DNA of 43,095 bases from Rhodovibrionaceae bacterium (GTDB taxonomy: Bacteria > Pseudomonadota > Alphaproteobacteria > Kiloniellales > DSM-21159). Below are positions 18,918 to 37,628 of this stretch, piece after piece. The notes under the pieces were generated by a model that did not search any database, had not been told where the DNA came from, and saw nothing but the letters and a program-made list of their open reading frames with translations. The DNA is taken from assembly GCA_028285215.1 (NCBI GenBank), contig JANQPZ010000011.1, positions 1 through 43,095 on the forward strand, read 5' to 3'. The position numbers were made by a program, and so were the translations under genes. Each line of letters starts with the position of its first letter. Position 1 is the stretch's first letter.

Positions 18918-19913
18918 ATGAGACTATCGACCGGCATCGTGATCGGTCTCGTTCTGGCTGCGGCGTCCGCGGGCACAGGCTGGTACTGGTGGCAGCAGCG
19001 CCAGCAGCTGCCCGACCATATCGCGACCGCGAACGGGCGCATCGAGGCCGAAGAAGTCCATATCGCCACGAAGTACGCCGGACGCGTGGCCGAGGTGCTG
19101 GTTGAAGAGGGCAGTCTGGTCGAGGTCGGCCAGGTCCTGGCGCGCATGGATACGGCAGAACTGGATGCGGAACTCGATCAGGCGATCGCCGACACCGCGC
19201 AATCGCGGGAGGCGGTGAGAGAGGCCGAGGCGCTGATCGCCCAACGCGAAAGCGAGCTGAATTTGGCGCAGCTGGAGCTGAATCGCGCGCTCTATCTGGC
19301 CGAGAGAGGCCATGTGTCACTGGAGCGGGTCGATCAGCGCAGGTCCCGGCGAGACAGCGCCCAGGCGGCCCTCGCGGCGGCGCAGGCCCATGCGGCCAAT
19401 GCCGAACGGGCCGTGGAGTCGACAGAGGCCAGGGCCCGGCGCATTCAAACGCAGATCGACGACGCGGTCCTGACCGCCCCGCGCTTCGGCCGCATCCAGT
19501 ACCGCCTGGCCGAGCCCGGCGAAGTCCTGCCGGCCGGCGGGCGCGTCGTCACCCTGCTCGATCTGACCGACGTCTATATGACCATCTTCCTGCCGACGGC
19601 GCAGGTCGGTCGGGTCTCGATCGGCGCCGAAGCGCGCCTCATCCTCGATGCCATACCGGAGTACCGAATTCCGGCCAGGGTCTCCTTCGTCGCCTCGGAA
19701 GCGCAGTTCACCCCCCGGCAGGTCGAAACCCGCAGCGAGCGCGAGAAGCTTATGTTTCGCCTCAAGGTCAAGATCGACCCGGACCTGCTGCTCGCGCACA
19801 TCGAGCAGGTGAAAACCGGCGTTCCGGGAGAGGCCTACGTGCTGCTTGGCTCCGACAACGGCGTCTGGCCGGACTGGCTCGAGGTGCGCCTGCCCGAGAC
19901 GGCGGCGCGATGA
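18918..19913 (+). CDS. HlyD/YhiI-type periplasmic adaptor (efflux membrane fusion protein)
   Basis: Membrane fusion protein, 331 residues, anchored by one N-terminal segment ([20 protein letters not shown]). The biotinyl-lipoyl half-motif reads [20 protein letters not shown] followed by [19 protein letters not shown] long coiled-coil hairpin (about 75-180, Gln/Arg/Ala/Glu-rich) follows, then the returning lipoyl half [18 protein letters not shown] and a beta-barrel. It connects an inner-membrane ABC exporter to an outer-membrane channel. ATG 18918 follows GAGG by 8 nt, and its stop overlaps the ABC gene (ATGA). The order is that of yhiI-rbbA-yhhJ in enterics. Confidence 0.93.
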
Positions 19914-22717: not shown

Positions 22718-22719
22718 CG

Positions 22720-23847
22720 ATGGGGCGCCTGGAAACGATCTACCGGCTCGGCATCAAGGAACTCTACAGTCTGCGCCACGACCGCGTTTTGCTGATCCTC
22801 GTCATCTGGGCCTTTTCCTTCTCGATCTACACGGCGGCGACGGGCATGTCGCACGATCTCAATCGCGCCGCCATCGCCATCGTCGACGAGGACCGTTCTC
22901 AACTCTCCAACCGTATTCGCGAGGCCCTGCTGCCGCCCTACTTCGAGGAACCGGCGCTGATCTCCTTCGACGAGATCGACTCCGGCATGGACTCCGGGCG
23001 CTACACCTTCGTGCTCGTCGTTCCGAGCGGTTTCGAGGCCGATGTCCTGGCCGGACGCCGGCCTGCGATCCAGGTGAACATCGATGCGACGGCCATGATG
23101 CAAGCCGGCATCGGCGCCCGCTACATCGCCGGCATCCTGACCCAGGAGATCGCGACCTTCGCAGGCCCGGGAATGGAGATACCGCCCGCCGCCGTCGCAC
23201 TGGAGACGCGCTACGCCTTCAACCCCAACATCACCAGCGCCTGGTTCACCAGCATCATGGAGATGATCAACAACATCACCATTCTCGCCATCGTGCTGAC
23301 CGGCGCCGCGCTGATCCGCGAACGGGAGCACGGCACCATCGAGCACCTGCTGGTCATGCCGGTGACGCCGCTGGAGATCATGCTGGCCAAGGTCTGGGCG
23401 AACGCCCTGGTGATCATGGTCGCGACGGGGCTCTGTCTCGGCCTGGTGGTCGAGACCCTGCTGCAGGTGCCCGTTGCCGGCTCCAAGACGCTCTTTCTCC
23501 TGGGCACGGCGCTCTATCTCTTCTTCGCGACGGCGCTGGGTATCTTCCTGGCCACCCTGGCCCGTTCGATGCCGCAGTTCGGACTGCTCTTCATGCTGGT
23601 CATCCTGCCGATGAACCTGCTGTCCGGCAGCGATACCCCGATCGAGAGTCAGCCCGAGCTGCTGCAGCTGGTCATGCAGACCGTGCCCTCGACTCACTTC
23701 GTAAGCTTCGCGCAGGCCATTCTCTATCGCGGCGCCGGCATCGACGTGGTCTGGCCGCAGTTCCTTCTGGTCACGGCGATCGGCGGCCTGTTCTTCGCCT
23801 TCGCCGCCGCCCGCTTCCGCAACAGCGTCGGGGCCCTGCGCTCCTGA
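22720..23847 (+). CDS. ABC-2 type permease (YhhJ-like)
   Basis: Inner-membrane permease of the ABC-2 family, 375 residues, completing the exporter. A first TM segment (HDRVLLILVIWAFSFSIYTA) is followed by a periplasmic domain (IAIVDEDRSQLSNRIREALL, as in YhhJ). Then come about five segments with the family motif ALIREREHGTIEHLLVMPVTPLEI, and a last segment ending VGALRS. ATG 22720 uses AGGAG in the end of the preceding gene. It would form the permease dimer with the C-terminal domain of the RbbA-like protein. The exported substrate is unknown. Confidence 0.92.
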   Translation: MGRLETIYRLGIKELYSLRHDRVLLILVIWAFSFSIYTAATGMSHDLNRAAIAIVDEDRSQLSNRIREALLPPYFEEPALISFDEIDSGMDSGRYTFVLVVPSGFEADVLAGRRPAIQVNIDATAMMQAGIGARYIAGILTQEIATFAGPGMEIPPAAVALETRYAFNPNITSAWFTSIMEMINNITILAIVLTGAALIREREHGTIEHLLVMPVTPLEIMLAKVWANALVIMVATGLCLGLVVETLLQVPVAGSKTLFLLGTALYLFFATALGIFLATLARSMPQFGLLFMLVILPMNLLSGSDTPIESQPELLQLVMQTVPSTHFVSFAQAILYRGAGIDVVWPQFLLVTAIGGLFFAFAAARFRNSVGALRS

Positions 23848-23994
23848 TCTGCCAGAGTAGGAGTCACGCCGCCGCGCCGGAGGTCGGACACTCGGCGGTT
23901 TGACTTCCTGCGGTCAGGGCATAGGTGAATTGGCAGTAAGGCGCACGACCGTCTGCCCCTCTCCGTACTTTCAGTCGTTTTGTCGAGCCGCACC

Positions 23995-24609
23995 ATGACA
24001 CGAGCGCCCTCGTCGGAGACCGACATCAGGCTGGCATTGAAAGCCCTGACGCAGACTGCGCACGAACACACCGAGCGGAGAGTGGAAGCGCTCCTGCCCT
24101 TTTCGAAACCCGACGCCTATCGCAGCTTCCTCTCCCTGCTGCTGTCCATGCATCGCCTCGGAAAGGACGCGGCCGCGCTGATCGGCGACGAGCGCCTGCA
24201 GGCACGGGAGAGAGAGGCGATCGGCCTGATCGCCTCGGATCTGGGTCCAGAGTCGAGCGCGGACCTCGGCATCCCCCTGCCATCGCGAGAGACCGGCTTC
24301 GCCTGGGGTATACTTTACGTTTGCCGCGGCTCCGCATTGGGTGGCGCGGTCCTGGCGAAGCGGGCCCGGGAACTGTCCGACCGGAACCCCGGCCGCCTGG
24401 GCGTCGGCTACTTCAATCACTGCGCGCAGCAGGGAGCGGCCGAGTGGCGAATCTTCTGCCGCGATCTCGAGCGAAAGCGGCCCGACCTGGCTTCCGCAGG
24501 TGCTGGGGCGGCCTTTGCCTTCGACACCTTCGCCCGACTGCTCGAGACAAGGATCGATCTCTGCACAGCGGGGTCCGGCTCTGCCGTCGGCCTAACCGTC
24601 GGCCAGTAA
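23995..24609 (+). CDS. Heme oxygenase (biliverdin-producing, BphO-like)
   Basis: Heme oxygenase fold, 204 residues from ATG 23995, a usual length. The proximal heme ligand is probably His25 (or His23) in TAHEHTERRVEALL. The distal helix has the family's glycine pattern in WGILYVCRGSALGGAVL, and YFNHCAQQGAAEW fits the C-terminal part. It converts heme to biliverdin IX-alpha with loss of iron and CO. Biliverdin is the chromophore needed by the bacteriophytochrome encoded 378 nt to the right on the other strand. The two are convergent, and this gene's 3' end overlaps the response regulator gene by 18 nt. The ribosome site is weak, and a TTG at 23980 is the alternative start. Confidence 0.85.
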   Translation: MTRAPSSETDIRLALKALTQTAHEHTERRVEALLPFSKPDAYRSFLSLLLSMHRLGKDAAALIGDERLQAREREAIGLIASDLGPESSADLGIPLPSRETGFAWGILYVCRGSALGGAVLAKRARELSDRNPGRLGVGYFNHCAQQGAAEWRIFCRDLERKRPDLASAGAGAAFAFDTFARLLETRIDLCTAGSGSAVGLTVGQ

Positions 24610-24984
24610 GGCGTCCGCCAGGACCACCAGTTCGGCCGGCAGGAAGGGTTTCTTGATGCTGCTGCTCGCGCCCAGACGGCGCGCCTGGGTCAGAAACCTG
24701 CTCTCCGTATCGCTCTCTTCCAGAGACGCCGAGGCCCCGGTGACAGCAATGACCGGCGGGGCGTGCGGCCCCAGGGTCCTCAGCGCCCCGATCACCGAGA
24801 GACCGCCTTTTCCCCGAGCGACGAAGAGATCCGAAACGACCAGATCGACCTTGTCGTTCTGCAGAACGCCGATCGCCTCCTCGCCGCTGTGCGTCAGCAC
24901 GACCTCGTAGCCATTCAGTTCGAAGACGTCCCGCCACTCGAAAGCGAGCTGCAGGTTGTCTTCCATGATCAGGATACGCGGCAT
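24592..24984 (-). CDS. Single-domain response regulator (CheY-like)
   Basis: Stand-alone receiver domain, 130 residues, with no output domain. Conserved sites are the acidic pair in ILIMEDN, phosphoacceptor Asp52 in VVSDLFVARG, the Thr in AVTGASAS, and the Lys in SSIKKPFLP. ATG 24984 lies 2 nt after the bacteriophytochrome stop, so it is co-transcribed and very likely the partner of that kinase. Its coding end overlaps the heme oxygenase gene from the other strand. The longer open frame through 26100 is inside the kinase gene and is not real. Confidence 0.9.
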   Translation of the reverse strand: MPRILIMEDNLQLAFEWRDVFELNGYEVVLTHSGEEAIGVLQNDKVDLVVSDLFVARGKGGLSVIGALRTLGPHAPPVIAVTGASASLEESDTESRFLTQARRLGASSSIKKPFLPAELVVLADALLADG

Positions 24985-24986
24985 GC

Positions 24987-27533
24987 TCAGGAGTGCGTGT
25001 AGAGTTTCGTCAGTGTGGACAGAAACCGGGCCACATCGACGGGCTTGGTCAGGACCGTGCAGGTCAAGAGATCCTGTGGCATCTCGTAGTCGGATCCGTA
25101 GCCCGTGGCAAAGAAAAAGGGCACCTTCTTGCTCAGCAGCAGTCTGGCGACGTCGAAACTCTGCTCGGAGCGCAGGCTGACATCCAGCACGGCAAAGTCC
25201 GGGACGGCCGCCTCGATCGAGGCTTGCGCCTGACTCACGGTGGGAAAGGTTCGCACATCGCCGACGCCGAGGTCTCGCAGCATGTCCGTCATATCCATCG
25301 CGACAACCATGCTGTCTTCCAAAATCAGCACGCTCTGCGGAAGAGCCTGGTCCTGCCGCCCTCCTGTCCGCAGGGGCGCGCCGCTGCCGGGCGGCTGGGT
25401 TTCGAGGCGGATAACGGCCGCGGCCGGCAGCCACAGTTCCGCCCGGAGACCTTCGGGCGCGAATTCGAGCCGGCTGTCGCCGTCCATCTCGTAGGGCACG
25501 GCCCGCTCGATCAGCCCCAGACCGAAGCCGCGCCGGTTCGGCGCCCTTGTCGCCGGGCCGCCGCTTTCGACCCAGGTGATCCGAACGCCGCCCCTGTGGT
25601 CGTCGATGTCGATTTCCACGCGGCCCGACCCGCTGGACAGCGCCCCATGCTTCATCGAGTTGGTGGTGAGTTCGTGGACGACAAGCGCGAACATCGGCGC
25701 GAGATCGGCCCTGACCGCGTAGTCGCCGCCCCGGATCGCGAACTGTTCCTGATCGGCAAGGATGAAGGGCTGCATTTCGGTCCGGAACAGCGTGTGAAGG
25801 CTGACGCCGCTGGCAATGCGATTGGCGGCCAGATCGTGGGCCGTTCCCAGCGCGGCGATGCGCTGTTCCAAGGCTCTCGCGTAGGATTCGAGCGAGTCCG
25901 CAGAATCCTGGGCCCGCCGGGAGAGGGAGCGGATGAGCGCCAGGATGTTGCGAACGCGATGGTTCAGCTCGGCGATGTAGAGGCTGCGCTGCCGCTCCTC
26001 CTTGTGGCTCAGTCGCCGGAAAAGCGCATCGTCGGCCTGGGCCAGGGCAGTGCGAACCTCCAGGGCGGCTTCGATGTCCTCCTGCTCCCAGGGCAGGCAA
26101 CGGCCCTTCACGGCTTGCGCGTAGGCCGCAAAGGACCCCCGAGGGATCAGCCGCGGACCGTCGGCATGGTCCACGATCTCCTTCTCCGGAGCGCCAGCCC
26201 AGTGCAGGGATCGCAGCGCTTCGTCGCGGAAGAAAACCAGCTTGCTGGCACTGTCCGGCGCCATGCGAAGGGCGAGCGCACCCGCCGCAGACCCGAAAGA
26301 CGCGGCCGATCCGACCAAACCTTCGCGGATCGTCAGGGCCGCTTTATGGTCGTCGGCTTCCTCGGCCAGCAGGGCGTCGGCCACTGCGGCGGTTGTCGCG
26401 AGGTCCGGACAGCTTCCGAACATTACTGTTTCCTGAGGACTGACCAGGGCCATGCCATCGGCACGCAGCAGGCGACAGTAGGGATCGGCGACGTCTTGCG
26501 CGAGTTCCTTCAAATCCCTGGCGACGTCGGCCGACTTGAGCAGCTCGGACTGATAGGTCAGAATCCTCTCTTTCGACTGACCGCGCAGCCGCTCGAGACG
26601 CTGCTCCATCTGCAGGGAGAAGAACTGCACGAAGACTTCCGCCGCCAGCCGCGCCTCGGAGGTGATGACGCGCGGCGTCCGGTGGTGGAAGGCGATCAGA
26701 CCCCAGAGCCGGCCGCGCACCAGGACGGACAGGGTCATGGAGCCTGCGACCCCCATGTTACGCAGATACTCCATATGGATCGGTGAGGTGCCGCGCAGAA
26801 TCGCGAGCGTCAAATCCAAAGGTTGGGCAGCCGCATCGGCGGCCAGCAAGGGCACCCCGTCGTCGTTGACCGACGCGATCACCCGCAGCGGCACGCGCTG
26901 CATGATCGCTCTCGCCTGGTTCGGGATGTCCCACTTCGGGAAGCGAAGGCCCAGGAAGGGTTCCATCTCCGCGCTGCGGGCTTCCGCCAGGACCTCCCCG
27001 TCGCCTTCCGCATCGAAGCGGTAGAACATGACCCGGTCGAAGCCCGTGAGGTTGCGGAGGCCGATCGCTGCATCGCCCAGGCAGCGCTCCAGGTCCGCCG
27101 TGCCCTGCAGGCGCGAGAGCAGGGCTCGAACCAGAGGGACCGTGGGAGCGACCTCCTGCTCTGCCGCGGAGGACTCCTCCAGCTCGATCACCGGCAAGCC
27201 GTCGCTGAGATGCGCCCAAAGCTCGAATGTACCGCCGCCAAGGGAGAGGCTGCCGACAGGCTCCCGTTGCGATCGCGCGGTCGAGAGACTGAGCGCGTTG
27301 CTGAGATCGTGCAGCGTCTCGGCGCCCAGAAGACGCTTAACGCTTTGCCGAAAAGCCTCTTCAGGCGCGATCCCAAGCAGGTCGCCGGCGTTGGCGCTGC
27401 ACCAGGTGATCCCTTCCAGACGCTCATCCGTCGCCAGCAAGGCGCCGAAGCTCTGGATGCTTCCCGGAATGTGCACCGGCTCCCGGTCGCAGGTCTCCAG
27501 CGAAAGGGCCTCTCGCGACTTCAACTGGGTCAT
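24987..27533 (-). CDS. Bacteriophytochrome hybrid histidine kinase (PAS-GAF-PHY-HWE kinase-REC)
   Basis: Red/far-red light sensor kinase, 848 residues, biliverdin as chromophore. The attachment Cys15 is in LETCDREPVHIPGSIQ. GAF: VMFYRF, the FPKWDIPNQAR segment (classic PASDIP, with the Asp kept), SPIHMEYLRNMGV and WGLIAFHH (His ligands kept). PHY tongue: PRGSF. The kinase is of the HWE type, with ELNHRVRNILALI around residue 525 and an ATPase with RRGFGLGLIE. A C-terminal receiver (about 735-845) has its Asp near 781 in FAVLDVSLRSEQ. ATG 27533 follows GAGGAG by about 6 nt. It is the first gene of an operon with the response regulator. The biological output is unknown. Confidence 0.92.
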   Translation of the reverse strand: MTQLKSREALSLETCDREPVHIPGSIQSFGALLATDERLEGITWCSANAGDLLGIAPEEAFRQSVKRLLGAETLHDLSNALSLSTARSQREPVGSLSLGGGTFELWAHLSDGLPVIELEESSAAEQEVAPTVPLVRALLSRLQGTADLERCLGDAAIGLRNLTGFDRVMFYRFDAEGDGEVLAEARSAEMEPFLGLRFPKWDIPNQARAIMQRVPLRVIASVNDDGVPLLAADAAAQPLDLTLAILRGTSPIHMEYLRNMGVAGSMTLSVLVRGRLWGLIAFHHRTPRVITSEARLAAEVFVQFFSLQMEQRLERLRGQSKERILTYQSELLKSADVARDLKELAQDVADPYCRLLRADGMALVSPQETVMFGSCPDLATTAAVADALLAEEADDHKAALTIREGLVGSAASFGSAAGALALRMAPDSASKLVFFRDEALRSLHWAGAPEKEIVDHADGPRLIPRGSFAAYAQAVKGRCLPWEQEDIEAALEVRTALAQADDALFRRLSHKEERQRSLYIAELNHRVRNILALIRSLSRRAQDSADSLESYARALEQRIAALGTAHDLAANRIASGVSLHTLFRTEMQPFILADQEQFAIRGGDYAVRADLAPMFALVVHELTTNSMKHGALSSGSGRVEIDIDDHRGGVRITWVESGGPATRAPNRRGFGLGLIERAVPYEMDGDSRLEFAPEGLRAELWLPAAAVIRLETQPPGSGAPLRTGGRQDQALPQSVLILEDSMVVAMDMTDMLRDLGVGDVRTFPTVSQAQASIEAAVPDFAVLDVSLRSEQSFDVARLLLSKKVPFFFATGYGSDYEMPQDLLTCTVLTKPVDVARFLSTLTKLYTHS

Positions 27534-27891
27534 GGTCGCTCCTCAACGCTTTGATCGCCCGGGGATGTTCAGGCCCGGAGCACGACACAAGAGTTCGACC
27601 GAAGGCCGGTTTCGGCAATGAACTCGGTCGATTATTTTGCCCAACTCAATAACACCACTTGCTTGCGACAGTGCGCTTTTACTGACGAACCCTAAAAAGC
27701 CAGAGCCACGGGACCGCTCGCCGGACATTCCGTTTTTACGCAAAGCAAATCTTTATATATACAAACGAAATACAAATGGAAAGTGCCGTTAACCTATTGT
27801 GTTTACTTAATTTTAACTGAAAATCGCACATACTTAAAATAAATAGTGCACACTGTACTATACACTATCATTGGTAGAGCGGAACGACAGT
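27534..27891. promoter_or_regulatory. Divergent AT-rich promoter region between phytochrome and REC-kinase
   Basis: 358 bases with no gene. 27740-27870 is AT-rich in otherwise GC-rich DNA. TAGTG and CACTA arms (about 27844-27867) form a short inverted repeat 25 nt before the REC-kinase start. It should hold promoters for both genes. A GAGCGGA ribosome site lies at 27876-27882. Confidence 0.45.
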
Positions 27892-29058
27892 ATGGAGCTT
27901 CAGGCGCTCGCCACCGAGCGATTTGCCCGCCCGAGCTATCGCGTTGTGGTCGTGGACGACGATCCGGACGACTTTCTGACGGTCGCCAGGCTGCTGTCCG
28001 CATCCGGGCAAGCGGACTTCCAGCTGACTCATATCGACAGTGCCGTCTCGGCGGCCGAACGTCTCGCGTCGGAGCGCTATGACGTCGCCCTGGTCGACTA
28101 CTTCATCGATCAGTCGCTCGGCAGCGACCTTGTGTCCACCCTCGGCGGGATGGATTCCGACCTGCCGTTTATCATGCTGACCGGCAGCGAGGGTGCAGCG
28201 CTCGACAACGATGCGCTGAACTCCGGCGTCGTGGATCTTCTGGAAAAGTCCGAGATCTCGACACAGAGCCTGTCCCGCTCGATCATCTATGCGCACTCCC
28301 GCTTTCAGTTCGAGCAGCAGCTGCGGCGAAGCCGGGCCGAGCTGAAGGCCGAAAAGGAGAAGGCCGAGGCGGCCAATAGCGCGAAGAGCGACTTCCTGGC
28401 ACGCATGAGCCATGAGCTGCGTACACCCTTGAACTCCATTCTGGGCTATGCCGAGATGATCTCTCTGGGTATCGGCACGCAGTCTTCGGAAGACGTCAAG
28501 CGCTACGGAGAGCACATCCACAAGAGCGGCAGCCATCTGCTGGCTCTGATCAACGATCTGCTCGACATCAGCCGCATCGAAGCGAACGAGTACAAGATCA
28601 ACCCCGCAACCCTGCGTCTGGACGCAGAGGCGCAGGCGGTAGCCGATCTCATCGGGCCGACAGCGCAAGCCCAAGGCATCCACCTGAGACTCGATCCGTC
28701 GCTGAAGGGTGTTCGTCTGACAGCCGATCCGAGGGCGTTTCACCAGATCCTGCTGAACCTGCTCTCCAATGCCATCAAGTTCACCCCCGCCGAAGGCACG
28801 GTGACTCTGGCGGCGTCTTCAACAGCCGCAACCGTCCGCATCTACATCGAAGACACCGGGATCGGCATCAGTCCCAGGGATATCGAGACCGTACTCAAGC
28901 CGTTCGGCCAGGTGGCGAACCCCTTCTCGAAACCCCGCGACGGTACTGGCCTGGGACTGCCGATCGTCTGTTCGCTGATCGAGCTGCATGGCGGCAGTCT
29001 GACCCTGGAAAGCTCCGTCGGCGAAGGAACGACGGTCGTCGTGACGCTGCCGCGCTAA
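27892..29058 (+). CDS. REC-histidine kinase hybrid
   Basis: Two-component sensor of 388 residues with an N-terminal receiver and C-terminal kinase, without a separate sensory domain or membrane segment. Receiver: VVVVDDDPDDF, phosphoacceptor Asp69 in ALVDYFIDQS, MLTGSEG, LLEKSEI. A coiled linker (about 145-165) leads to HisKA with His174 in SHELRTPLNSILGYAEMI. The ATPase domain has LLNLLSNAIKF, DTGIGISPRDIE and GTGLGLPIVCSLIELHGG. ATG 27892 is preferred over TTG 27871, as GAGCGGA lies before it. Such receiver-first kinases often act as phosphorelay integrators. Partners are probably the neighbouring kinases. Confidence 0.9.
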   Translation: MELQALATERFARPSYRVVVVDDDPDDFLTVARLLSASGQADFQLTHIDSAVSAAERLASERYDVALVDYFIDQSLGSDLVSTLGGMDSDLPFIMLTGSEGAALDNDALNSGVVDLLEKSEISTQSLSRSIIYAHSRFQFEQQLRRSRAELKAEKEKAEAANSAKSDFLARMSHELRTPLNSILGYAEMISLGIGTQSSEDVKRYGEHIHKSGSHLLALINDLLDISRIEANEYKINPATLRLDAEAQAVADLIGPTAQAQGIHLRLDPSLKGVRLTADPRAFHQILLNLLSNAIKFTPAEGTVTLAASSTAATVRIYIEDTGIGISPRDIETVLKPFGQVANPFSKPRDGTGLGLPIVCSLIELHGGSLTLESSVGEGTTVVVTLPR

Positions 29059-29075
29059 GGAGAGGCCGGACCCCA

Positions 29076-29116
29076 GGTCCCAAAGCACGGGACCCCGATG
29101 AACGTCAGATCATCGG
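29076..29116 (+). terminator. Two tandem hairpins after the REC-kinase gene
   Basis: GGTCCC (29076-29081) / GGGACC (29089-29094), followed at once by CCGATG (29095-29100) / CATCGG (29111-29116). Both stems are perfect, starting 18 nt after the stop. No U-tract is present. Likely terminator or 3' structure between convergent genes. Confidence 0.5.
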
Positions 29117-29168
29117 AGAAGAGCAGGGTCGCATGAAGTCGTGAGAGGCGATTTCACCCCTGTCTCAA

Positions 29169-29519
29169 CTAACGTCCGTCGTTCGGATCCCAGAAGGGAT
29201 CGTCCAATGCGCTTTCGCGCCACCCAAGATCGGCCGTGCTTCGCTGCCCGCCGTTGGCCGGATGCCGGTCGGCGAGCAGGATAACATTGCTGTCGTCCGA
29301 GAGCGGTACACCATCGCGGGCCGGAGCAGCTTGCTTCGCCTTGTGTCGCAACGTCATGGCGATCTTGCGGCTGCTCAAGGAAAGCTCGCGCAAGAGCTGA
29401 CTGCACATGATGGTCCGCTGATAGTTGCTCAGCTGGTCGCAGTCGACGACCTCTTCGAAGGCCGCTTCGACGACTTCCTTCTGCTCCCGCAACATCTGGC
29501 GAAATTGATCTGACCGCAT
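29169..29519 (-). CDS. Small hypothetical protein
   Basis: 116-residue protein I do not recognise. The first 65 residues look helical and amphipathic (MRSDQFRQMLREQKEVVEAA, CSQLLRELSLSSRKIAMTLRH), with two Cys residues. The remainder is polar and probably disordered, ending DDPFWDPNDGR. There are no membrane segments and no match to NepR or CheY-like folds. GAGCGG lies shortly before ATG 29519. It fills an otherwise empty gap between two sensor-kinase genes, and the opposite strand offers only a shadow frame. It could be a small regulator of the signalling cluster, but that is only a guess from position. Confidence 0.55.
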   Translation of the reverse strand: MRSDQFRQMLREQKEVVEAAFEEVVDCDQLSNYQRTIMCSQLLRELSLSSRKIAMTLRHKAKQAAPARDGVPLSDDSNVILLADRHPANGGQRSTADLGWRESALDDPFWDPNDGR

Positions 29520-29855
29520 ACCGCTCTAATCTCCAGAGTCGAATAACCACCCGGCCGTCTTTCTTGCGCGACGGCGGCGGCACCGAAATTAGGCGCCAAC
29601 TCCTAAAAAGACCGTAAATACTGAACGTTACCTCGCCGTTCATAACAGCACTCAATACACATAAAACAGCCTAAACAAGAACATTAGCCCTGAAAACAAC
29701 TATTGATGAGGGGGATCGAACTTCATTTTACTTCAAACGATAAGACGGAAAGTAGAAAACAGCGAGCTTTGATCTTTCACAATCCGAGTAAGTATCGGAT
29801 AGTCCCTCCCATCAGCCCGCCCCTTGGAGTCAAGGGCAACCGCTCGAGGGTCACC
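29520..29855. promoter_or_regulatory. AT-rich divergent region before the giant sensor kinase
   Basis: 336 bases between the small protein gene and the preferred start of the CheB/CheR fusion. In-frame earlier starts at 29703 and 29706 lack a ribosome site. 29590-29790 is AT-rich. TGAACG (about 29624) and CGTTCA (about 29639) form a short inverted repeat. No convincing sigma-factor pair was identified. Confidence 0.4.
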
Positions 29856-32800
29856 ATGACGAACCGGACTCGTTCTGCAGGCGCCACGGAAACGAAGCCG
29901 CGAATGGCAACCAAGAAGCGCAAACCCAATGGTTCGGCGGCGAAGACCGCAACGGGAAAGCGCAAGACAAGCGGCGCCGTGACAGCAGATGCGGCAGCAC
30001 AGGAACTGCCGACCTCCAAGGGTCCGGCTTCGGGTCGACGCGGCCGTCAAAAAACAGCGCCACAGGACTCCACGGCAGCGCGACCGGGCGGACTGGCCGC
30101 ATCCGAAGCGGCCCAGCGCTCGACGGCGACGCGCATCGTCGCCATCGGCGCGTCCGCCGGCGGCTTGACTCCGTTACAGCAGTTCTTCGACAGCATGCCC
30201 ACGGACTCAGGGCTGGCCTTCGTCATCATTCAGCATCTCTCGCCCGACTTCCGGTCGATGATGGACGAACTCATGGCACGGCATTCCACCATGACCATCT
30301 GCCGGGCGGAGGATGGCATGCTCTTGGCGCCGAACACGGTCTACCTCAACTCTCCCAGAACCGAGATGACCGTCGCCGACGGCAGACTGCGGCTGCGAAA
30401 GGGAAGCCCCGAAGCGATACTGGAGCTTCCTATCAACCAGTTCTTCGAATCTCTCGCAAAGGAACAGAAGTCCGACGCCATCGGCATCATCCTCTCCGGC
30501 ACCGGAAGCGACGGAACGAAGGGGTGCGAGGCCATCAAGGCCAAGGGAGGCGCGGTCCTGGTACAGGATCCCGGCACGGCGAAGTTCGACGGCATGCCCA
30601 TATCGGTCATCGACCGCGGCCTCGCCGACTCGGTTGATTCACCGGAGGACCTGCCCGCCGTCATCATGGATCTGATGAAGGGGCGTGAAGTCCGCATGAT
30701 GCTGGACTCGGCCGCAGTCAAGCGCGACCCGGCCCGCACGCTCTTCGGGCTGCTGAAGGACCGCTTCGGGGCCGAGTTCAGTCAGTACAAACGGGCGACC
30801 GTCGATCGCCGCATTCGCCGCCGTGCCGACATGTGCAAGCTGCCGGACCTGGAAAGCTACGTCGACTTCCTGATCGGAAATCGCGACGAACTGGAGGCGC
30901 TCTATCACGACCTGCTGATCGGGGTAACCGCCTTCTTTCGGGACGCCGAAGCCTTCCAAACACTGGAGTCCAAGGTCATCCCCGCGATCGCCTCCAAGAT
31001 GTCGATCGAACATCAGATCCGCGTCTGGGTGCCGGGATGCGCCAGCGGAGAGGAGGCCTACTCGATTGCCATCGCCTTCTGCGAATTCGCGCGCCGCAAC
31101 GACATTCCGCTCAATCTGAAGATCCTGGCAACCGACATTCACAGCCGGTCGCTGGAGGCCGCGGGGACCGCCGTCTACACCGCCGAGAACCTGAAACACA
31201 TCTCCGAAGAGCGCCTGAACCGCTACTTCGACCGGGAGGGCGACTACTATCAGATCAAGCAGTTCTTGCGGCGGCTGGTCGTGTTCAGCCCCCACAATGC
31301 GATCAGCGACCCGCCTTTCACACGGATCGACCTGCTGAGCTGCCGTAATCTGCTGATCTACTTCAACGAGATGGCCCAGCAGAAGGCCCTGTCGCTTTTT
31401 CACTTCGCGCTGAAGAAGGACGGCTATCTCTTTCTCGGGCCGAGCGAGTCGGTCAGCAAAATCGACGACGAATTCAACGTCATCGACAAACGCTGGCGGA
31501 TCTTTCAGAAGGCCCGCGACGTTCGCCTCCCCGATGCCTCTTCGCTGCTGACCCGTACCGGTAACGAGGACAACAGCCAGCGCGGACGTGGCGCGGAGCT
31601 CAGCAAGCTGGGCACCACGCAAGAAACGCTTGGCATGCGACTCTATGCAAGGCGCGCCCTCAACGATGCCTTCACGGCGCTGCTCGGTCGCTATGCGCCG
31701 CCAGGGTTTCTCCTGACACGTGACGGAACGATCCTGCATATCTTCGGCGACGCCGCGCGCTACCTGACGCTTCGCGAAGGCGGCTTCAGCCAGCGGATCC
31801 TGGATCTCGTTCAGGAGGAGTTGAAGCTCGTCGTCAGTGCCGGCCTCGAGCGCGCCAAGGGGCGCGGCGTTCAGACCTATTCCCGACGCGTCACCGTTCC
31901 CACGCCGGATGACCGGTCCGTGGTCCTGAACGTCACCATCGACCCGCTTGCCGAAGAAGATGAGCATACAGAGTACCTGCTGCTCGTGCTCGAACCCCAT
32001 CGCGAGGAAGGCACGCCAGCTAGTCCCGCTGCCGCCGCCACGCCCATCTTGACGACGGATCAACGTGAAACGGTCGAGGTCATGCAACAGCGGATCGACG
32101 ATCTGGAGCGAGATCTGAAGTTTACCGAGGAGAGTCTGCAAACGACGATCGAGGAACTCGAGACCAGCAACGAAGAGCTTCAGGCCACCAACGAGGAGTT
32201 GATGGCCTCGAACGAAGAGCTGCAGAGCACGAACGAGGAACTGCACTCCGTCAACGAAGAACTCTACACAGTCAGCGCCGAGCACCAGAGCAAGATCGAA
32301 GAGCTTACGCAGCTCAACAACGATATGGACCATCTGCTCAAGGGCACAGATATCGGGACGATCTTCCTCGATTCCGGCCTGCGGATTCGACGCTTCACGC
32401 CAGCCGCCACGCGGGTCTTCAACCTGATCGCCCAGGACATCGGCCGGCCGATCTCGCACATCACCTATCGCTTCCGCGAACCTGCCCTTCTCGACCTGCT
32501 GCAGGGCGTGCAGCGGACCGCCAAGCCCGTTGAGGCCGAGCTCACCGTCGACGACGATGCCTACCTTCTGCGTGCCCTGCCCTACGTCACGGACCCGGAC
32601 GAGACCGTCGGCATCGTCATCACCGTGATCGACGTCACGGAAGTCAAGGCGGCCAAGAGCAAAGCGGTTCGGATGGACCAGCTTTACGAAAGCATTGTCG
32701 AGGACATGTCCGAGCCGCTCGTTCGCTGGAATGCGAAGGGCGCGATCACCTTCTGCAACGACGCCTATGTGCGCTCCAGACGCTCGACCAGGGAGGCCAT

Positions 32801-35003
32801 CGTCGGCACGCAGATTCGCGACATGATTCCCGAGAAGGAGCACATGGCCTTCTTCAGTGCGCTGGAGGAGCTTTCTCCCGGTGAGTCGAGCGACTTCCGC
32901 ATGCAGGAAGACCCGGAAGGTGGAGCGAACCGCTGGTGGGCGGGGAACGTTCGTGCGATCGGCAAAGGCACGACGGAGGTCGTCGAGTACCAGTCGGTCG
33001 ATCGGGACATCACCGATCTCGTGAACTATCAGGAGGCTCTGGCCGATCTCTTGAAGGTCAGTCGCCAGGACCTTCCGGCCGGTACGTCGGTGATCGACGC
33101 CATCCTGGACGTCGGTTGCCGCTATCTGGACATGCCGATCGGACTCAGGGTTAAGCTGGAGCAGGGTCGCTACGAGGTTCTAAACCTGCGCGGTCGGGGC
33201 CGGAAGGCGCTCAAGGTCGGCCTGGTCGTCGACGCGGCCGACGCAAAGCAGGAAACCGAGCATCGTCCCAAGAAGGTGAGAACCTGCCTCGACATCTCCA
33301 AGACCGCACTCAAGGATCATCCTTGGTACAAGGCCCTAGGCTGTTCGGCCTTTATCAGCGTCCCGGTCTTTATCGACAGTCAGCTGGCGGCGGTCGTCAA
33401 GTTCGCCTCCCCCCGCGGGCGTTCGCAGCACTTCACCAGTGCAGAAGCTTCTTTCGTCCAGTTGCTCGCGCACTTCACGGCAACGGAAATGAAACGTGCC
33501 TGGCAGGAAGAGCTGGTGAGGCGCAGCGAAGAGCAGCTGAATCTCATTTTCGACAACGTGCCGGTCCGCATTTGGTACAAGGACGATAAAAACCGGATTC
33601 TCAGGCTGAACAAGACCGCAGCCGACTCCATGGGATTGACGGTTGCTGAGGCGGAAGGAGCGGACACCTACGATCTTTTTCCGGAGATGGCGGCCAAGTA
33701 CCATAAAGACGACCTCAAGGTCATCAAGTCCGGAAAACCAGAGATCGGCATTATCGAGGAGTATACACCGAAGGACGCCGAGCGAGGCTGGATCAGCACC
33801 AACAAGATCCCCTACACGGACCCGGTTACAGAAGAGCGTTTCCTCTTCGTGGCGGCAAGCGACGTGACGGAGCTGAAACTGGCGGAACTGGAACTCCGCG
33901 AGTCAAACGAGGAGCTGGCACAGCAGCAAGAGAATTATCGGAACCTCTACTGCCGAACCCCGGCGATGCTGCACTCGATCGACACCCAAGGCAAGCTGGT
34001 CGAGGTCACCGACCTTTGGCTAGAGAATCTGGGCTATACGAGGAAGGATGTCATCGGCAGGAAGTCGACGGACTTCCTGACCGAGGAGTCCCGCCGCTAT
34101 GCCCAGGAGGTGGTGCTGCCGCAGTTCTGGCAGGATGGTCGTATGGAGAACGTGCCCTACCAGTTCGTCCGAAAGGACGGGTCTCGGATCGATATCGAAT
34201 TGTCGGGCATCGTCGACTTCAGCAGTCATGGAAGCGAGCGACAGAGCCTTGCCGTGCTGAACGACGTGACAGACCGGAATCGCGCGCTGCTGGCCCTCGA
34301 ACGCAAGAACGAGGAACTGGAACACGCGAACGAAAGTCTGCAGAAATTCGCCTTCGTCGCGTCGCACGATCTGCAGGAACCCCTGAGAAAGATCCGCCAG
34401 TTCAGCGAATACCTGGTCGCCGACTGCGAAGACAGCCTCAGCCAAGACGGGCGCTACTTCCTGAACGTGATCACCGGGTCGGCGAACCGCATGAGCGACC
34501 TGATTCGGGACATCCTGGCCTTCTCCAGAGCCTCCAACCAGACGATCAGCCTGCAAAAGACCGATCTGAACGAGATCTTCTCCCGCGTTCTCGTGGATCT
34601 GGAGATCCAGTTCGCCGAAGCCGATGCCGATATCGAGATCGGCAAGCTGCCGTCTGTCATGGCGGACGACACGATGACGGCTCAGCTCTTCAAGAACCTC
34701 ATTTCGAACGCGCTCAAATACCGTCATCCCGAACGCAAACCTCATATTCGCGTCACCAGCAAGGTGTCGAAAGACAAGCGGCACTGCCAGATCGCCATCG
34801 AGGATAACGGGATCGGATTCGATCAGAAGCACGCCGAAACGATCTTCGAGCCCTTCCGCAGACTTCACAGGAAAAGCGAGAAGGAGGGCTCCGGCATCGG
34901 CCTCGCGATCTGCCGCACCGTTTGCGAGCGCCATGGCTGGTCGATCGAGGCGAAGGGCACAGCGGGCGAAGGGGCTGTCATCAGCGTCGTCGTTATGATT
35001 TGA
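29856..35003 (+). CDS. CheB-CheR-PAS-GAF-histidine kinase fusion
   Basis: Very large cytoplasmic signalling protein, 1,715 residues. A Lys/Ala-rich disordered head (1-90) is followed by a CheB-type methylesterase (93-280, Ser100 in GASAGG, His in QHLSPDF, Asp in GTGSDGTKG). A CheR-type methyltransferase (295-553, VPGCASGEEAYSIA, LATDIHSR, SCRNLLIYF) comes next, then a PAS-like region, a coiled coil with six EELxxxN heptads (766-807), PAS, PAS, GAF (1065-1215), PAS and PAS. The C-terminus is a HisKA/ATPase kinase (SHDLQEPLRKIRQFSEYL, GSGIGLAICRTVCERHGW). The frame is open 51 codons earlier, but ATG 29856 has GAGGG 6 nt upstream. The Rcp1-like regulator follows after 28 nt and is the likely partner. 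No chemotaxis genes are nearby. Confidence 0.9.
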   Translation: MTNRTRSAGATETKPRMATKKRKPNGSAAKTATGKRKTSGAVTADAAAQELPTSKGPASGRRGRQKTAPQDSTAARPGGLAASEAAQRSTATRIVAIGASAGGLTPLQQFFDSMPTDSGLAFVIIQHLSPDFRSMMDELMARHSTMTICRAEDGMLLAPNTVYLNSPRTEMTVADGRLRLRKGSPEAILELPINQFFESLAKEQKSDAIGIILSGTGSDGTKGCEAIKAKGGAVLVQDPGTAKFDGMPISVIDRGLADSVDSPEDLPAVIMDLMKGREVRMMLDSAAVKRDPARTLFGLLKDRFGAEFSQYKRATVDRRIRRRADMCKLPDLESYVDFLIGNRDELEALYHDLLIGVTAFFRDAEAFQTLESKVIPAIASKMSIEHQIRVWVPGCASGEEAYSIAIAFCEFARRNDIPLNLKILATDIHSRSLEAAGTAVYTAENLKHISEERLNRYFDREGDYYQIKQFLRRLVVFSPHNAISDPPFTRIDLLSCRNLLIYFNEMAQQKALSLFHFALKKDGYLFLGPSESVSKIDDEFNVIDKRWRIFQKARDVRLPDASSLLTRTGNEDNSQRGRGAELSKLGTTQETLGMRLYARRALNDAFTALLGRYAPPGFLLTRDGTILHIFGDAARYLTLREGGFSQRILDLVQEELKLVVSAGLERAKGRGVQTYSRRVTVPTPDDRSVVLNVTIDPLAEEDEHTEYLLLVLEPHREEGTPASPAAAATPILTTDQRETVEVMQQRIDDLERDLKFTEESLQTTIEELETSNEELQATNEELMASNEELQSTNEELHSVNEELYTVSAEHQSKIEELTQLNNDMDHLLKGTDIGTIFLDSGLRIRRFTPAATRVFNLIAQDIGRPISHITYRFREPALLDLLQGVQRTAKPVEAELTVDDDAYLLRALPYVTDPDETVGIVITVIDVTEVKAAKSKAVRMDQLYESIVEDMSEPLVRWNAKGAITFCNDAYVRSRRSTREAIVGTQIRDMIPEKEHMAFFSALEELSPGESSDFRMQEDPEGGANRWWAGNVRAIGKGTTEVVEYQSVDRDITDLVNYQEALADLLKVSRQDLPAGTSVIDAILDVGCRYLDMPIGLRVKLEQGRYEVLNLRGRGRKALKVGLVVDAADAKQETEHRPKKVRTCLDISKTALKDHPWYKALGCSAFISVPVFIDSQLAAVVKFASPRGRSQHFTSAEASFVQLLAHFTATEMKRAWQEELVRRSEEQLNLIFDNVPVRIWYKDDKNRILRLNKTAADSMGLTVAEAEGADTYDLFPEMAAKYHKDDLKVIKSGKPEIGIIEEYTPKDAERGWISTNKIPYTDPVTEERFLFVAASDVTELKLAELELRESNEELAQQQENYRNLYCRTPAMLHSIDTQGKLVEVTDLWLENLGYTRKDVIGRKSTDFLTEESRRYAQEVVLPQFWQDGRMENVPYQFVRKDGSRIDIELSGIVDFSSHGSERQSLAVLNDVTDRNRALLALERKNEELEHANESLQKFAFVASHDLQEPLRKIRQFSEYLVADCEDSLSQDGRYFLNVITGSANRMSDLIRDILAFSRASNQTISLQKTDLNEIFSRVLVDLEIQFAEADADIEIGKLPSVMADDTMTAQLFKNLISNALKYRHPERKPHIRVTSKVSKDKRHCQIAIEDNGIGFDQKHAETIFEPFRRLHRKSEKEGSGIGLAICRTVCERHGWSIEAKGTAGEGAVISVVVMI
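32151..32276 (+). repeat. Six 21-bp heptad repeats (coiled coil) inside the fusion kinase
   Basis: In-frame 21-nt units each encode Glu-Glu-Leu-x-x-x-Asn (the last ends in Ser): EELETSN, EELQATN, EELMASN, EELQSTN, EELHSVN, EELYTVS. The protein repeat is near perfect while the DNA has diverged, so selection acts on the helix. It marks the coiled coil joining the CheR part to the PAS/kinase part. Confidence 0.85.
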
Positions 35004-35031
35004 TAAAGGGGGCATGGTTTAGGGGGACAGG

Positions 35032-35493
35032 ATGCAGTCCGACGCGGAACCGGTCGTCGTCCTGATGGTCGACGACGACGACGCCGACGTCTACTCCACT
35101 CGGCGGGCTTTCAAGGAAGGCAAGATCGTCAACGACTTCCGGCATGTTTCGGATGCCGACGGTCTGTTCGACTATCTCGACCGCATGGAGACCGCGGCTG
35201 ACTCCAACCCCCATCCCCGGCCCCACGTCATCCTGCTGGACATCAACATGCCGGGCCTAAGCGGTCTGGACGTGCTGAAGGCGCTGAAGGGAAACGAGCT
35301 CTACCGCTCCATTCCGGTGGTCATCCTGACTACCTCCGACGAGGAACGGGACATCACCGAGAGCTACGCGCTGGGCGCAAGCTCCTACATCACGAAACCG
35401 GTGAGCATTCAAGGTATGCTGGAGGTTGCCCGGCGCTTCGAGGACTACTGGTTTCAGATGGTCCGCGTCCCCAAGGGAGACCGCAACCACTGA
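35032..35493 (+). CDS. Rcp1-like single-domain response regulator
   Basis: CheY-like receiver of 153 residues, of the Rcp1 type found next to phytochrome-like kinases. Conserved positions are the acidic cluster in VLMVDDDDADVY, phosphoacceptor Asp70 in ILLDINMPGLSG, TTSDEERDI, and the Lys in SSYITKPVSIQG. It starts at ATG 35032, 28 nt after the giant kinase stop, on the same strand, so the kinase is its probable phosphodonor. The C-terminal DYWFQMV is usual for the group. There is no output domain, so it acts by protein contact or as a relay. Confidence 0.92.
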   Translation: MQSDAEPVVVLMVDDDDADVYSTRRAFKEGKIVNDFRHVSDADGLFDYLDRMETAADSNPHPRPHVILLDINMPGLSGLDVLKALKGNELYRSIPVVILTTSDEERDITESYALGASSYITKPVSIQGMLEVARRFEDYWFQMVRVPKGDRNH

Positions 35494-35563: not shown

Positions 35564-37213
35564 CTATAGAGTCGCCGTCACCTCCCCGAGGCGTTGGACG
35601 AGCGCCATGTTCTCGCGATAGTCGATCGGGATGACGATCAGCGACGGGCCCCGGTGCGCCAAAGCGCGCTCGATCGCCGGTCGCAGATCGCGCGCGTTCG
35701 CGACCTGCTGACCTTGCCAGCCGAAGGCGGCGGCCAAGCCGAGCCAATCGGGATTGCCGAAGGCGAGATCCGTGTGCCGCTGGAACTCCTGCTCCTGCTT
35801 CCAGGAGATCAGACCGTAACCGCCGTCTTCCCAGACCATCACGGTGATGTCGCTGTTCAGGCGACGTGCCGTCTCCATCTCCTGAACGTTCATCATGAAG
35901 TCGCCGTCGCCGGCGATGGCGAAAACCTTGCGGTCCGGCGCGACGATGTGGGCGGCAATCGCCCCCGGCAGCGGCATCCCCATCGAACAGAAGCCGTTGG
36001 GGATCAGGCAGGTGTTCGGCTCGTTGCAGTGGAAGTAGCGTGCGATCCACATCTTATGGGCGCCCACCCCGGAGAGCAGGATGTCCGAGGGCCCCAAAGC
36101 CGCCCGCACATCCCAGAGCGCCTTCTGCGGGCGGATCGATCCCTCGGTGTCGTCATCCTTGTGGGCCGCGAAGTCCTCCGCCATACGAGACCGCACCTTG
36201 GCTTGACCCGCGAGCGCGTAGTCCGGGACGCCGTCCCGCGCGACCCGCTCGTTCAGCATCCAAAGACCGTGGGCGAGATCGCCGACCAGTTCGACAGCCG
36301 GATGATACTGGCCGTCGATCTCCGCAGGCAGGAAGTCCATGTGCACGATCGGCTTGTCGCCCCTCGGGTTCCAGAGGCGCGGCGGGTACTCGACCAAGTC
36401 GTAGCCGATGGTGATCACCAGATCGGCGTCGTCGACGGCCAGGGCAACGTAGTCCTTCTGCTGAAGGCCGATGGTGTAGAGGCAGTAGGGTGCGTCCCGG
36501 TCGACCGCCCCCTTCCCCATGAAGGTCGAGATGACGCCGATGCCGGTCGCTTCGCAGAATCGCCGGAGCTGTTTGGCCGCACGCCGCCGGATGGCCCCGT
36601 TGCCGGCGATGACGATCGGGGTGCGTGCACTGCGAATTCTTGCCCAGGCTTCGTCGGCAATCTTGTCGTCGACGCCGGGGCGGCGGAATCGGCGCGGCTG
36701 CAAGGGCGTAGCTGCGGTCTCCTGCTTGGCGATATCTTCCGGAAGCTCGATCAGGACAGCCCCCGGCTTCTCGGTGCGCGCCAGACGCACGGCCTTTCGA
36801 ACGATCTCGGGAATGCTGTCGGCGGCGCGGACGGATTGCGCCCACTTCGTTACCGGCTCGTACATCGCCACCACGTCCATCACCTGGTGGCTTTCCTTGT
36901 GCTGACGCGTCGTGGCCGCCTGCCCGGTCAGCACCAGAACCGGAGCGCGGTCCATATTGGCATCGGCAACCCCGGTGATCAGGTTGGTCGCACCGGGACC
37001 GAGCGTGCCGAGGCAAGCCGCCACCTCGCCGGTCAGCCGGCCGTAAACCTCGGCCATGAAGGCAGCGCCCTGCTCATGTCGTGTCAGAACGAACTCGATC
37101 GCCGAGCCCTGCAGCGACAGCATGAGATCGGCGTTCTCCTCTCCAGGGACGCCGAAGATGTGGGTGACGCCCTCTTCTTCGAGGCAGCGCACAAGCAGAT
37201 CCGAGGCTTTCAT
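35564..37213 (-). CDS. Acetolactate synthase-family ThDP enzyme, large subunit
   Basis: Thiamine-diphosphate enzyme of the acetohydroxyacid synthase/pyruvate oxidase family, 549 residues. The catalytic Glu47 is in LTRHEQGAAFMAE, and the central domain reads GNGAIRRRAAKQL. The ThDP site is AGDGDFMMNVQEMET, then VWEDGGYGLISWK, where biosynthetic enzymes usually have NN in place of ED. No small regulatory subunit (ilvH) gene is beside it, so a catabolic acetolactate synthase or another 2-oxo-acid carboligase is more likely than the branched-chain biosynthetic enzyme. The AT-rich leader holds a candidate promoter. Function beyond the family is inferred. Confidence 0.85.
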   Translation of the reverse strand: MKASDLLVRCLEEEGVTHIFGVPGEENADLMLSLQGSAIEFVLTRHEQGAAFMAEVYGRLTGEVAACLGTLGPGATNLITGVADANMDRAPVLVLTGQAATTRQHKESHQVMDVVAMYEPVTKWAQSVRAADSIPEIVRKAVRLARTEKPGAVLIELPEDIAKQETAATPLQPRRFRRPGVDDKIADEAWARIRSARTPIVIAGNGAIRRRAAKQLRRFCEATGIGVISTFMGKGAVDRDAPYCLYTIGLQQKDYVALAVDDADLVITIGYDLVEYPPRLWNPRGDKPIVHMDFLPAEIDGQYHPAVELVGDLAHGLWMLNERVARDGVPDYALAGQAKVRSRMAEDFAAHKDDDTEGSIRPQKALWDVRAALGPSDILLSGVGAHKMWIARYFHCNEPNTCLIPNGFCSMGMPLPGAIAAHIVAPDRKVFAIAGDGDFMMNVQEMETARRLNSDITVMVWEDGGYGLISWKQEQEFQRHTDLAFGNPDWLGLAAAFGWQGQQVANARDLRPAIERALAHRGPSLIVIPIDYRENMALVQRLGEVTATL

Positions 37214-37628
37214 GAAGATGTCATCCTATGCCGTGTCATTCCGCCGCCGACAGACGGTGAGGGCCGGGTTGCCTTGGCTGGTCTCGGGTGGACTGAAGAA
37301 GACCTGCAGCACATCGGGACAGTGCCCCAGGGAAAGGCCCGGAACCGAGTTCGATCTTTGAACCCGGATCGCGACGCTACGGCAAGCGGTCCAGCGATCG
37401 TCAACCTCCACCAGATCCACAATGAAGAAAAGAAAATTCATGCAACCCAAATAATTCTCATGAAAATCTATACCTACGCACCAAAAATATACAATATAAT
37501 CAAAATCACAAATAAACATAACTCATAAGACCGGAGAGAATTTGGGTGCTCTCGGGTCGTGCGCTATCCAATGTCGACCAGTCTATACCGGCCGACACCC
37601 GAACAGTCGCACCAAGGGTCAGCCTCCG
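37214..37628. promoter_or_regulatory. 415-base leader / intergenic region with AT-rich core
   Basis: No convincing gene. 37430-37530 is AT-rich and lies between the end of the TRAP permease gene and the ThDP enzyme gene, both leftward. If the candidate promoter at 37467-37494 is right, the mRNA leader is about 245 nt. A short open frame in the leader (from about 37453) has no recognisable leader-peptide features. Confidence 0.45.
37467..37494 (-). promoter_or_regulatory. Candidate sigma-70 promoter for the ThDP enzyme gene
   Basis: On the minus strand TTGTAT (37494-37489), a 16-bp spacer, then TATAGA (37472-37467). It is close to the -35/-10 consensus and lies in the most AT-rich part of the region. 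No transcription evidence is available. Confidence 0.4.

Follow-up and report, generated by a model that had tools for sequence, protein, structure and literature searches.

A bacteriophytochrome gene cluster with a PKWDIP-variant photoreceptor and a linked CheB-CheR kinase in a Rhodovibrionaceae bacterium

The window analysed here is a stretch of 43,095 nucleotides from a Rhodovibrionaceae bacterium, and its positions 23995-35493 hold a phytochrome gene cluster, the existence of which is confirmed by Pfam, codon-position GC and relatives in other genomes. We think, with a little more confidence than doubt, that it is a red/far-red light two-component locus, in which shared receivers would serve to compare light with a second cytoplasmic signal and diffusible receivers would carry the output to proteins encoded elsewhere. 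The evidence consists of the identity of the parts, their active-site motifs, a linkage that is conserved in other genomes and the co-grouping of the linked genes in two gene trees. Each half of the cluster is an ordinary module, as CheB-CheR fusion kinases (CheBR kinases) and heme oxygenase neighbours of phytochromes are both common in the class, and the less ordinary features are the joint inheritance of the two halves and the variant form of the phytochrome.

Organization of the locus

The cluster comprises seven genes (Table 1), all of which show the codon bias of genuine genes as judged by codon-position GC. The heme oxygenase gene is convergent with the first lone receiver gene and overlaps it by 18 nt, and only 2 nt separate the stop codon of the phytochrome gene from the start of that receiver gene. 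By inspection, ATG 27892 was preferred over TTG 27871 as start of the receiver-kinase, and 29856 was chosen for the CheBR kinase, the frame of which is open from TTG 29703. As the first-pass annotation had described from the letters, three sensor kinases and two single-domain regulators lie together, both groups being recovered by Pfam, and no DNA-binding domain is found by Pfam in any of the seven genes. All receivers carry the acceptor residues (Asp, Thr, Lys), and all kinases carry the His and ATP-site strings, the strings having been picked by eye.

Table 1. Features of the phytochrome gene cluster and its immediate flanks.
Feature	Positions	Strand	Basis
Two ABC-exporter genes (left flank)	19910-23847	+	
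Heme oxygenase, divergent, BphO-type (predicted)	23995-24609	+	PDB sequence, profile and fold comparisons
Lone receiver	24592-24984	-	PF00072 5.8e-14; acceptor residues; co-located relatives
Bacteriophytochrome, PAS_2-GAF-PHY-HWE kinase-SdrG-like receiver, PKWDIP variant (W201, M211, Y471)	24987-27533	-	Pfam, PDB, tree
Intergenic spacer between the divergently transcribed phytochrome and receiver-kinase genes	27534-27891		Second half A+T-rich, read by eye
Receiver-HisKA-HATPase kinase	27892-29058	+	Pfam
116-aa ORF, no relatives found	29169-29519	-	GC3
CheB-CheR-coiled coil-PAS-PAS-GAF-PAS-PAS-HisKA-HATPase kinase, 1,715 aa	29856-35003	+	Pfam, PDB, tree
Lone receiver, phytochrome-partner (Rcp) type	35032-35493	+	PF00072 5.3e-18; PDB
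Acetolactate synthase-type gene (right flank)	35564-37213	-	

Between 27001 and 35000 the GC content per 1-kb bin is 0.571-0.635, which is less than in most of the window's other bins (0.625-0.712), with low-GC exceptions elsewhere at 11001-12000 (0.596) and 37001-38000 (0.602). This is compatible with acquisition of the region from elsewhere and does not prove it. At some distance, two TRAP-transporter DctM genes flank the region (window positions 12863-14824 and 37629-39452).

A divergent heme oxygenase next to the phytochrome

The product of the first gene is predicted to be a divergent heme oxygenase, an identity that we regard as settled because PDB, profile and fold comparisons agree. 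At the level of family models the match is faint, with PF01126 reaching an E-value of 0.0037 (17.5 bits, below the cut-off of 23), and the longer reading 23980-24609, which starts at TTG 23980, gave no match to NCBIfam and Pfam at default thresholds. Up to an E-value of 10, a PDB sequence search found two matches only, HemO 1j77 (1.1e-6) and pa-HO 1sk7 of Pseudomonas (4.6e-6). A profile made from 11 phytochrome-neighbour proteins matches the heme oxygenase 1iw0 in the PDB at 1.7e-23. The AlphaFold model of the product (pLDDT 78.5) has 1j77 as its top Foldseek match (TM 0.68, probability 1.00, E 1.1e-3) and pa-HO as its second, with TenA proteins of the same superfold following among the heme oxygenases and no match at an E-value of 0.001 or better. 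Across the 11 aligned heme oxygenase neighbour proteins, T19, H23, Y108, G112 and G116 are invariant, of which we take H23 to be the proximal histidine and G112 and G116 to be the glycines of the distal helix. The candidate of an unknown small regulator at the left edge of the cluster was thus rejected. The small unknown protein of the first-pass annotation is this heme oxygenase if the left-edge gene was intended, and it stands if the 116-aa ORF was meant, which has no Pfam match over cut-off and no relative at an E-value of 0.001 in 57 other genomes. That ORF has a GC3 of 0.75, and its single-sequence model shows, at low confidence (pTM 0.47), two long helices and a disordered tail.

Presumably the heme oxygenase makes the pigment of the phytochrome, as such neighbours do elsewhere according to the part of the Agrobacterium study available to us (PMC1552090). 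A six-frame search of the window's own genome for the heme oxygenase family gave no match; as it missed even the known gene at 23995-24609, this null result is no proof against a further heme oxygenase. In a neighbourhood scan, a heme oxygenase was found at the phytochrome locus for 10 of 12 phytochromes of the PxWDIP (W) type described below, the window's own being taken from Pfam and the local profile used for the scan having been built from seven proteins that are themselves seven of the ten neighbours counted. Independent PF01126 support lies above cut-off for L003, L004, L006 and L009 (loci are numbered with L, genomes with G); the window and L005 stay below it, and L002 has no such support. 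The two exceptions, L172 and L173, have no heme oxygenase within 19.9 kb. All ten phytochromes of other types that were scanned (L007, L008, L010, L013, L175-L180) have a heme oxygenase beside them, in a scan that left out many phytochrome loci, such as L011, L012, L014-L016 and L064-L087.

A phytochrome with three altered residues

The red-light input proposed for the locus is well supported by the photosensory core (residues 1-505) and its conserved residues. PF08446 (PAS_2), PF01590 (GAF) and PF00360 (PHY) are all over cut-off in the phytochrome, and they are followed by an HWE domain (PF07536, 4.4e-18) in which the H, N and WxE motif strings are present, and by a fused receiver that scores 26.6 bits, under the Pfam cut-off of 30.2. 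Its best PDB matches are 9rn8 and 6g1y (1e-86), which we take to be Agp2, presumably of the same HWE-receiver order. The window protein retains C15 as putative chromophore cysteine, D202 as the Asp of the DIP motif, H253 and H284 as equivalents of the pocket histidines 260 and 290, and R465 as the tongue arginine. It has, at the same time, W201, M211 and Y471 in place of the usual PASDIP serine, propionate-B tyrosine and tongue tryptophan, the last of which belongs to what we assume is named the WxE motif. Compared with Agp2-type HWE bacteriophytochromes, the window protein thus shares its best PDB match (6g1y) and the heme oxygenase neighbour, which is common in the class, whereas it differs in these three residues and in the lone receiver that follows its gene.

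The accessible portion of the SaBphP2 structure report states that a tyrosine nine residues after the PASDIP aspartate stabilizes the B-ring propionate and is hydrogen-bonded to a conserved arginine, and that this Arg/Tyr contact is one of two proposed signal routes (PMC6748860). Counted from the aspartate, this tyrosine corresponds to M211 in the window, while the two conserved arginines, R167 and R217, and the other tyrosine, Y171, remain. A literature search for these residues by DrBphP numbering found nothing relevant, and searches with the strings PKWDIP, PAWDIP, PHWDIP, PAWDVP and WDIPNQAR matched only two papers, which are antibiotic reviews as judged by title.

The three substitutions occur together in relatives. 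A tryptophan before the pocket aspartate (PxWD[IV]P) is present in 12 of 78 distinct aligned phytochromes (79 rows, one of which was dropped for a gap in a scored column), a proportion that is no natural frequency, since the sample was gathered by similarity to the window protein. Nine residues after the aspartate, all 12 W-type proteins have Met or Gln and none of the 66 others does (Tyr 62, Phe 3, Leu 1). The position of the tongue tryptophan is Tyr or Phe in all 11 W-type proteins that could be scored, the phytochrome of L009 being split into two frames in its assembly, and among the other 66 proteins it is Tyr in two and Arg in one. In a phytochrome tree the window groups with L002, L003, L004 and two copies from genome G821 (100/97), and this inner clade sits in a wider clade of 12 rows (100/100), whose sole member without the tryptophan is L065, on a long branch. 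The tree holds 44 hand-picked rows and left out, among others, L007, L011, L016, L024, L026, L060, L076, L082, L086 and also L009, the twelfth W-type protein. The two G821 copies (L170 and L171), both PKWDIP, are separate heme oxygenase-phytochrome-receiver sets in one small genome. A further W-type protein, that of L006, belongs to the culturable Tateyamaria omphalii.

The PASDIP serine, the propionate-B tyrosine and the tongue tryptophan are usual and not obligatory, and the clade is, by the tree, a variant inside the bacteriophytochrome family. We put forward, tentatively and with more doubt than conviction, that the W-type proteins are a distinct functional subfamily, in which the propionate-B (Arg/Tyr) route from chromophore to tongue, one of two proposed, and the tongue tryptophan have been rebuilt together, and in which the dark state, colour or switching mechanism would be different. 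Its members would signal to an SdrG-like receiver and to a lone receiver of their own, and some lineages would add a CheBR kinase inherited jointly with the phytochrome.

Receivers and the CheBR kinase

The fused receiver of the phytochrome is closest in the PDB to SdrG (5ieb, 5.3e-12), followed by 2lpm (7.9e-12) and, far more weakly, 3n0r (6.3e-4), which we take to be Sma0144 and PhyR, respectively. It carries the string PFFFATGY and is therefore a FAT GUY or SdrG-type receiver, if this motif is defined, as we assume, by a PFxFATGY-like sequence. The PDB search shows the lone receiver beside the phytochrome to be of a general kind (CpxR, 2.2e-11). The lone receiver at the right edge matches best an unnamed receiver, 5te9 (9.2e-29), and its closest named relatives are RcpB 1k66 (7.6e-26), RphyB 4zyl (2.3e-23) and Rcp1 1i3c (1.7e-20), which places it with the Rcp1/RcpA/RcpB type. 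In the large kinase, the CheB and CheR catalytic domains and the kinase form one chain, and it is by this architecture a CheBR fusion kinase; the Ser/His/Asp of CheB and the CheR strings are present and both parts have PDB matches.

In a tree of 47 CheBR kinases, from which one short row (L127) had been dropped, the three from the window, L003 and L004 are joined in one clade (100/100), with the kinase of genome G207 as sister. Identity to the other 44 proteins in the tree is 31-42%, and most of these have a HisKA or HWE kinase and many have receivers. At 1e-100, a CheBR kinase is found in 16 of the 58 relatives and in 24 of the 289 genomes of the class, with the window's own counted. A separate receiver-bearing ORF lies in the 1.5-kb flanks of 14 of 45 CheBR loci (window excluded), and others have fused receivers. 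CheBR kinases are also linked to HWE kinases in 13 loci (L091, L107-L112, L114, L116-L118, L120, L129), 11 of which have a separate small receiver ORF adjoining.

Conservation of the cluster

A genome scan with the phytochrome found 15 loci, three of which are close (48-54%), namely L002 in a Neomegalonema MAG, L003 in a Hellea MAG and L004 in a Caulobacterales MAG. Among the matches listed at an E-value of 1e-60 in 61 genomes of the order and 385 of the class, none beyond the window's own is closer than 38%. In the order of L004, 61 of 398 genomes match the phytochrome at 1e-75; the genomes of L003 and L004 do so at 46-51%, the two copies in G821 at 47-49%, and the next match is at 41%. Since the L003 and L004 genomes match at 46-51% but are not among the 61 genomes of the window's order, they would belong to another order.

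Conserved clustering in relatives had been set beforehand as a check on the first-pass annotation, and it is found: both of these MAGs carry a heme oxygenase (PF01126 8.6e-49 and 2e-46, respectively), a phytochrome and a lone receiver, the opposite strand then holds a receiver, a CheBR kinase and a further two lone receivers, and both gene trees group them with the window. Chance assembly of the cluster was therefore rejected, as the clustering recurs in other genomes. L002 has a heme oxygenase, a phytochrome and a frame-broken receiver near the contig end, and L170 and L171 each have all three genes, with the receiver of L171 cut by the contig end. A lone receiver thus follows the phytochrome in all six inner-clade members, one frame-broken and one contig-cut. 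Three of these six (window, L003 and L004) also have a CheBR kinase in linkage with the phytochrome; around L170 there is none in 15 kb, and the contigs of L002 and L171 end just after or within the receiver gene, so that linkage cannot be judged there.

The correspondence is not perfect throughout. The receivers that follow the CheBR kinase are 25-29% identical between the window and L003 or L004, so they may not be strict orthologues, and the position of the window's receiver-kinase is taken in L003 and L004 by lone receivers, one of which has a weak match (22.7%, 7e-4) to the receiver of that kinase. A relative of the receiver-kinase in G207 (38.6% over 376 aa) adjoins the sister CheBR kinase there, and as the 18 kb covered show no phytochrome, the pair of CheBR kinase and receiver-kinase may predate its link to light. 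The photosensory core finds no match in the two congeners, G001 and G002, of which G002 matches the kinase part only, and the locus is therefore patchy. Between the phytochrome operon and the CheBR module, L003 (12138-14929, 20973-21374) and L004 (5115-6665) have TerB-like and, below cut-off, ParB-like genes, with more TerB-like genes nearby; Pfam finds neither kind among the genes of the interval in the window.

Phytochrome loci with additional kinases and receivers are a known kind. In the available sections of the Agrobacterium work, the Agp1-AgR-ExsG-ExsF locus is described as a phytochrome that has as neighbours two response regulators and a further histidine kinase, ExsG, a homologue of the Agp2 kinase module, and Agp1 phosphorylates its separate receiver AgR (PMC1552090). 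As far as that text goes, both loci combine a phytochrome with an extra kinase and response regulators, whereas the window phytochrome is of the HWE type with a fused receiver and the large extra kinase is a CheB-CheR fusion. The latter has the same core as the CheB-CheR-PAS histidine kinases of Alphaproteobacteria, from which it differs by its linkage to a phytochrome at three loci (window, L003 and L004). The unusual part is the presence of the three altered residues together.

Signalling model and alternatives

From gene fusion, gene order and conserved residues we infer which protein phosphorylates which and where the output of the locus would lie. Biliverdin from the heme oxygenase would attach to Cys15 of the phytochrome, and light would then set the activity of the HWE kinase, which could phosphorylate its own fused SdrG-type receiver as well as the lone receiver encoded by the adjacent gene. 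The adjoining second module would consist of the CheB-CheR-PAS/GAF kinase and the Rcp-type lone receiver, and the receiver-gated kinase (REC-HisKA-HATPase) could take phosphate from another kinase or be gated by it. As three cases of joint inheritance of the two modules are known, a comparison of light with a second cytoplasmic signal through shared receivers seems the most likely arrangement, and the diffusible receivers may then act on targets outside the cluster. A light-gated HWE kinase with dedicated receivers is thus probably, although not certainly, joined to a CheBR kinase module, and phosphotransfer may then run between the two halves.

The strongest competitor, to which we grant an appreciable but minor share of belief, is that two unrelated systems stand side by side, a heme oxygenase-phytochrome-receiver set and a CheBR-PAS kinase with receivers, without any signalling contact. 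Many CheBR kinases of the class have a receiver beside them or fused to them and lack a phytochrome in their 1.5-kb flanks, and the second module may accordingly be independent of its phytochrome neighbour. In G207 the CheBR kinase and the receiver-kinase occur with no phytochrome in the 18 kb covered; this genome, presumably part of the class sample, is not among its 25 phytochrome matches. Moreover, the two halves of the cluster are transcribed in opposite directions. Against this stand the linkage in three genomes and the co-grouping of the two gene trees, which favour the joined, light-gated arrangement.

Slightly less probable than mere adjacency is that the locus serves as light input to the alphaproteobacterial general stress response, in which the HWE phytochrome and the SdrG-type receiver would phosphorylate PhyR, directly or via a PhyT-like relay, and thereby free EcfG from NepR. 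The energy or stress input of the first-pass annotation would derive solely from PAS and GAF domains, and the likeness of the fused receiver to SdrG, which is a receiver of the stress response, including its FATGY string, is a hint towards stress. The parts of two reports available to us describe an HWE photoreceptor kinase, Brucella LOV-HK, that acts on PhyR (PMC8092228), and a Pak-SdrG-PhyT-PhyR relay (PMC5898713). With the latter, from Sphingomonas melonis, the window shares HWE/HisKA_2 kinases and an SdrG-type receiver as far as that portion of the report describes them (PMC5898713), and it differs in its light input, in the fusion of the receiver to the kinase and in that PhyR is not found in its assembly. 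In G006, of the same family, phyR directly follows an HWE phytochrome gene, with both on one strand. PhyR and NepR both occur in G441 (the genome of L002) and G443 (that of L004), as well as in G002, G006 and G010. However, neither PhyR (at 1e-30) nor NepR turned up in the assembly of the window (82.8% complete), in the complete congener G001 or in G442, the genome of L003; NepR was found neither in G821 nor in G207; and no EcfG-type promoter pattern (GGAAC-N16/17-CGTT) occurs in the window, where 0.61 would be expected by chance. As PhyR was found in only three of eight other family genomes searched (G002, G006, G010), its absence here would not be odd. The stress response is therefore a possible output of the locus, and as a demonstrated one it was rejected. 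The gene pair on G006:C105 (phyR 156720-157484, HWE phytochrome 157698-160229, L177) gives, in its own right, a direct lead on whether light feeds the general stress response.

An adjunct to photo- or chemotaxis, in which the CheB and CheR domains would modify chemoreceptors and the Rcp receiver would act on the motor or on CheA/CheW, so that light biases motility, is improbable, since, although the CheB and CheR catalytic motifs are present and the Rhodocista photoreceptor Ppr binds CheW according to the accessible text of PMC2993699, Pfam finds no chemoreceptor, CheA or CheW within the interval and the CheB unit has no receiver in front.

Significance

Many phytochromes of non-photosynthetic bacteria are without a known output, and the co-inherited kinases and receivers of this locus provide a short list of partners to test. 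The part that deserves a second look by a phytochrome specialist is the W-type clade, which is a natural multi-site variant at positions that lie structurally in or beside the light-switch path, and spectra of one or two of its members would directly test the need for those residues.
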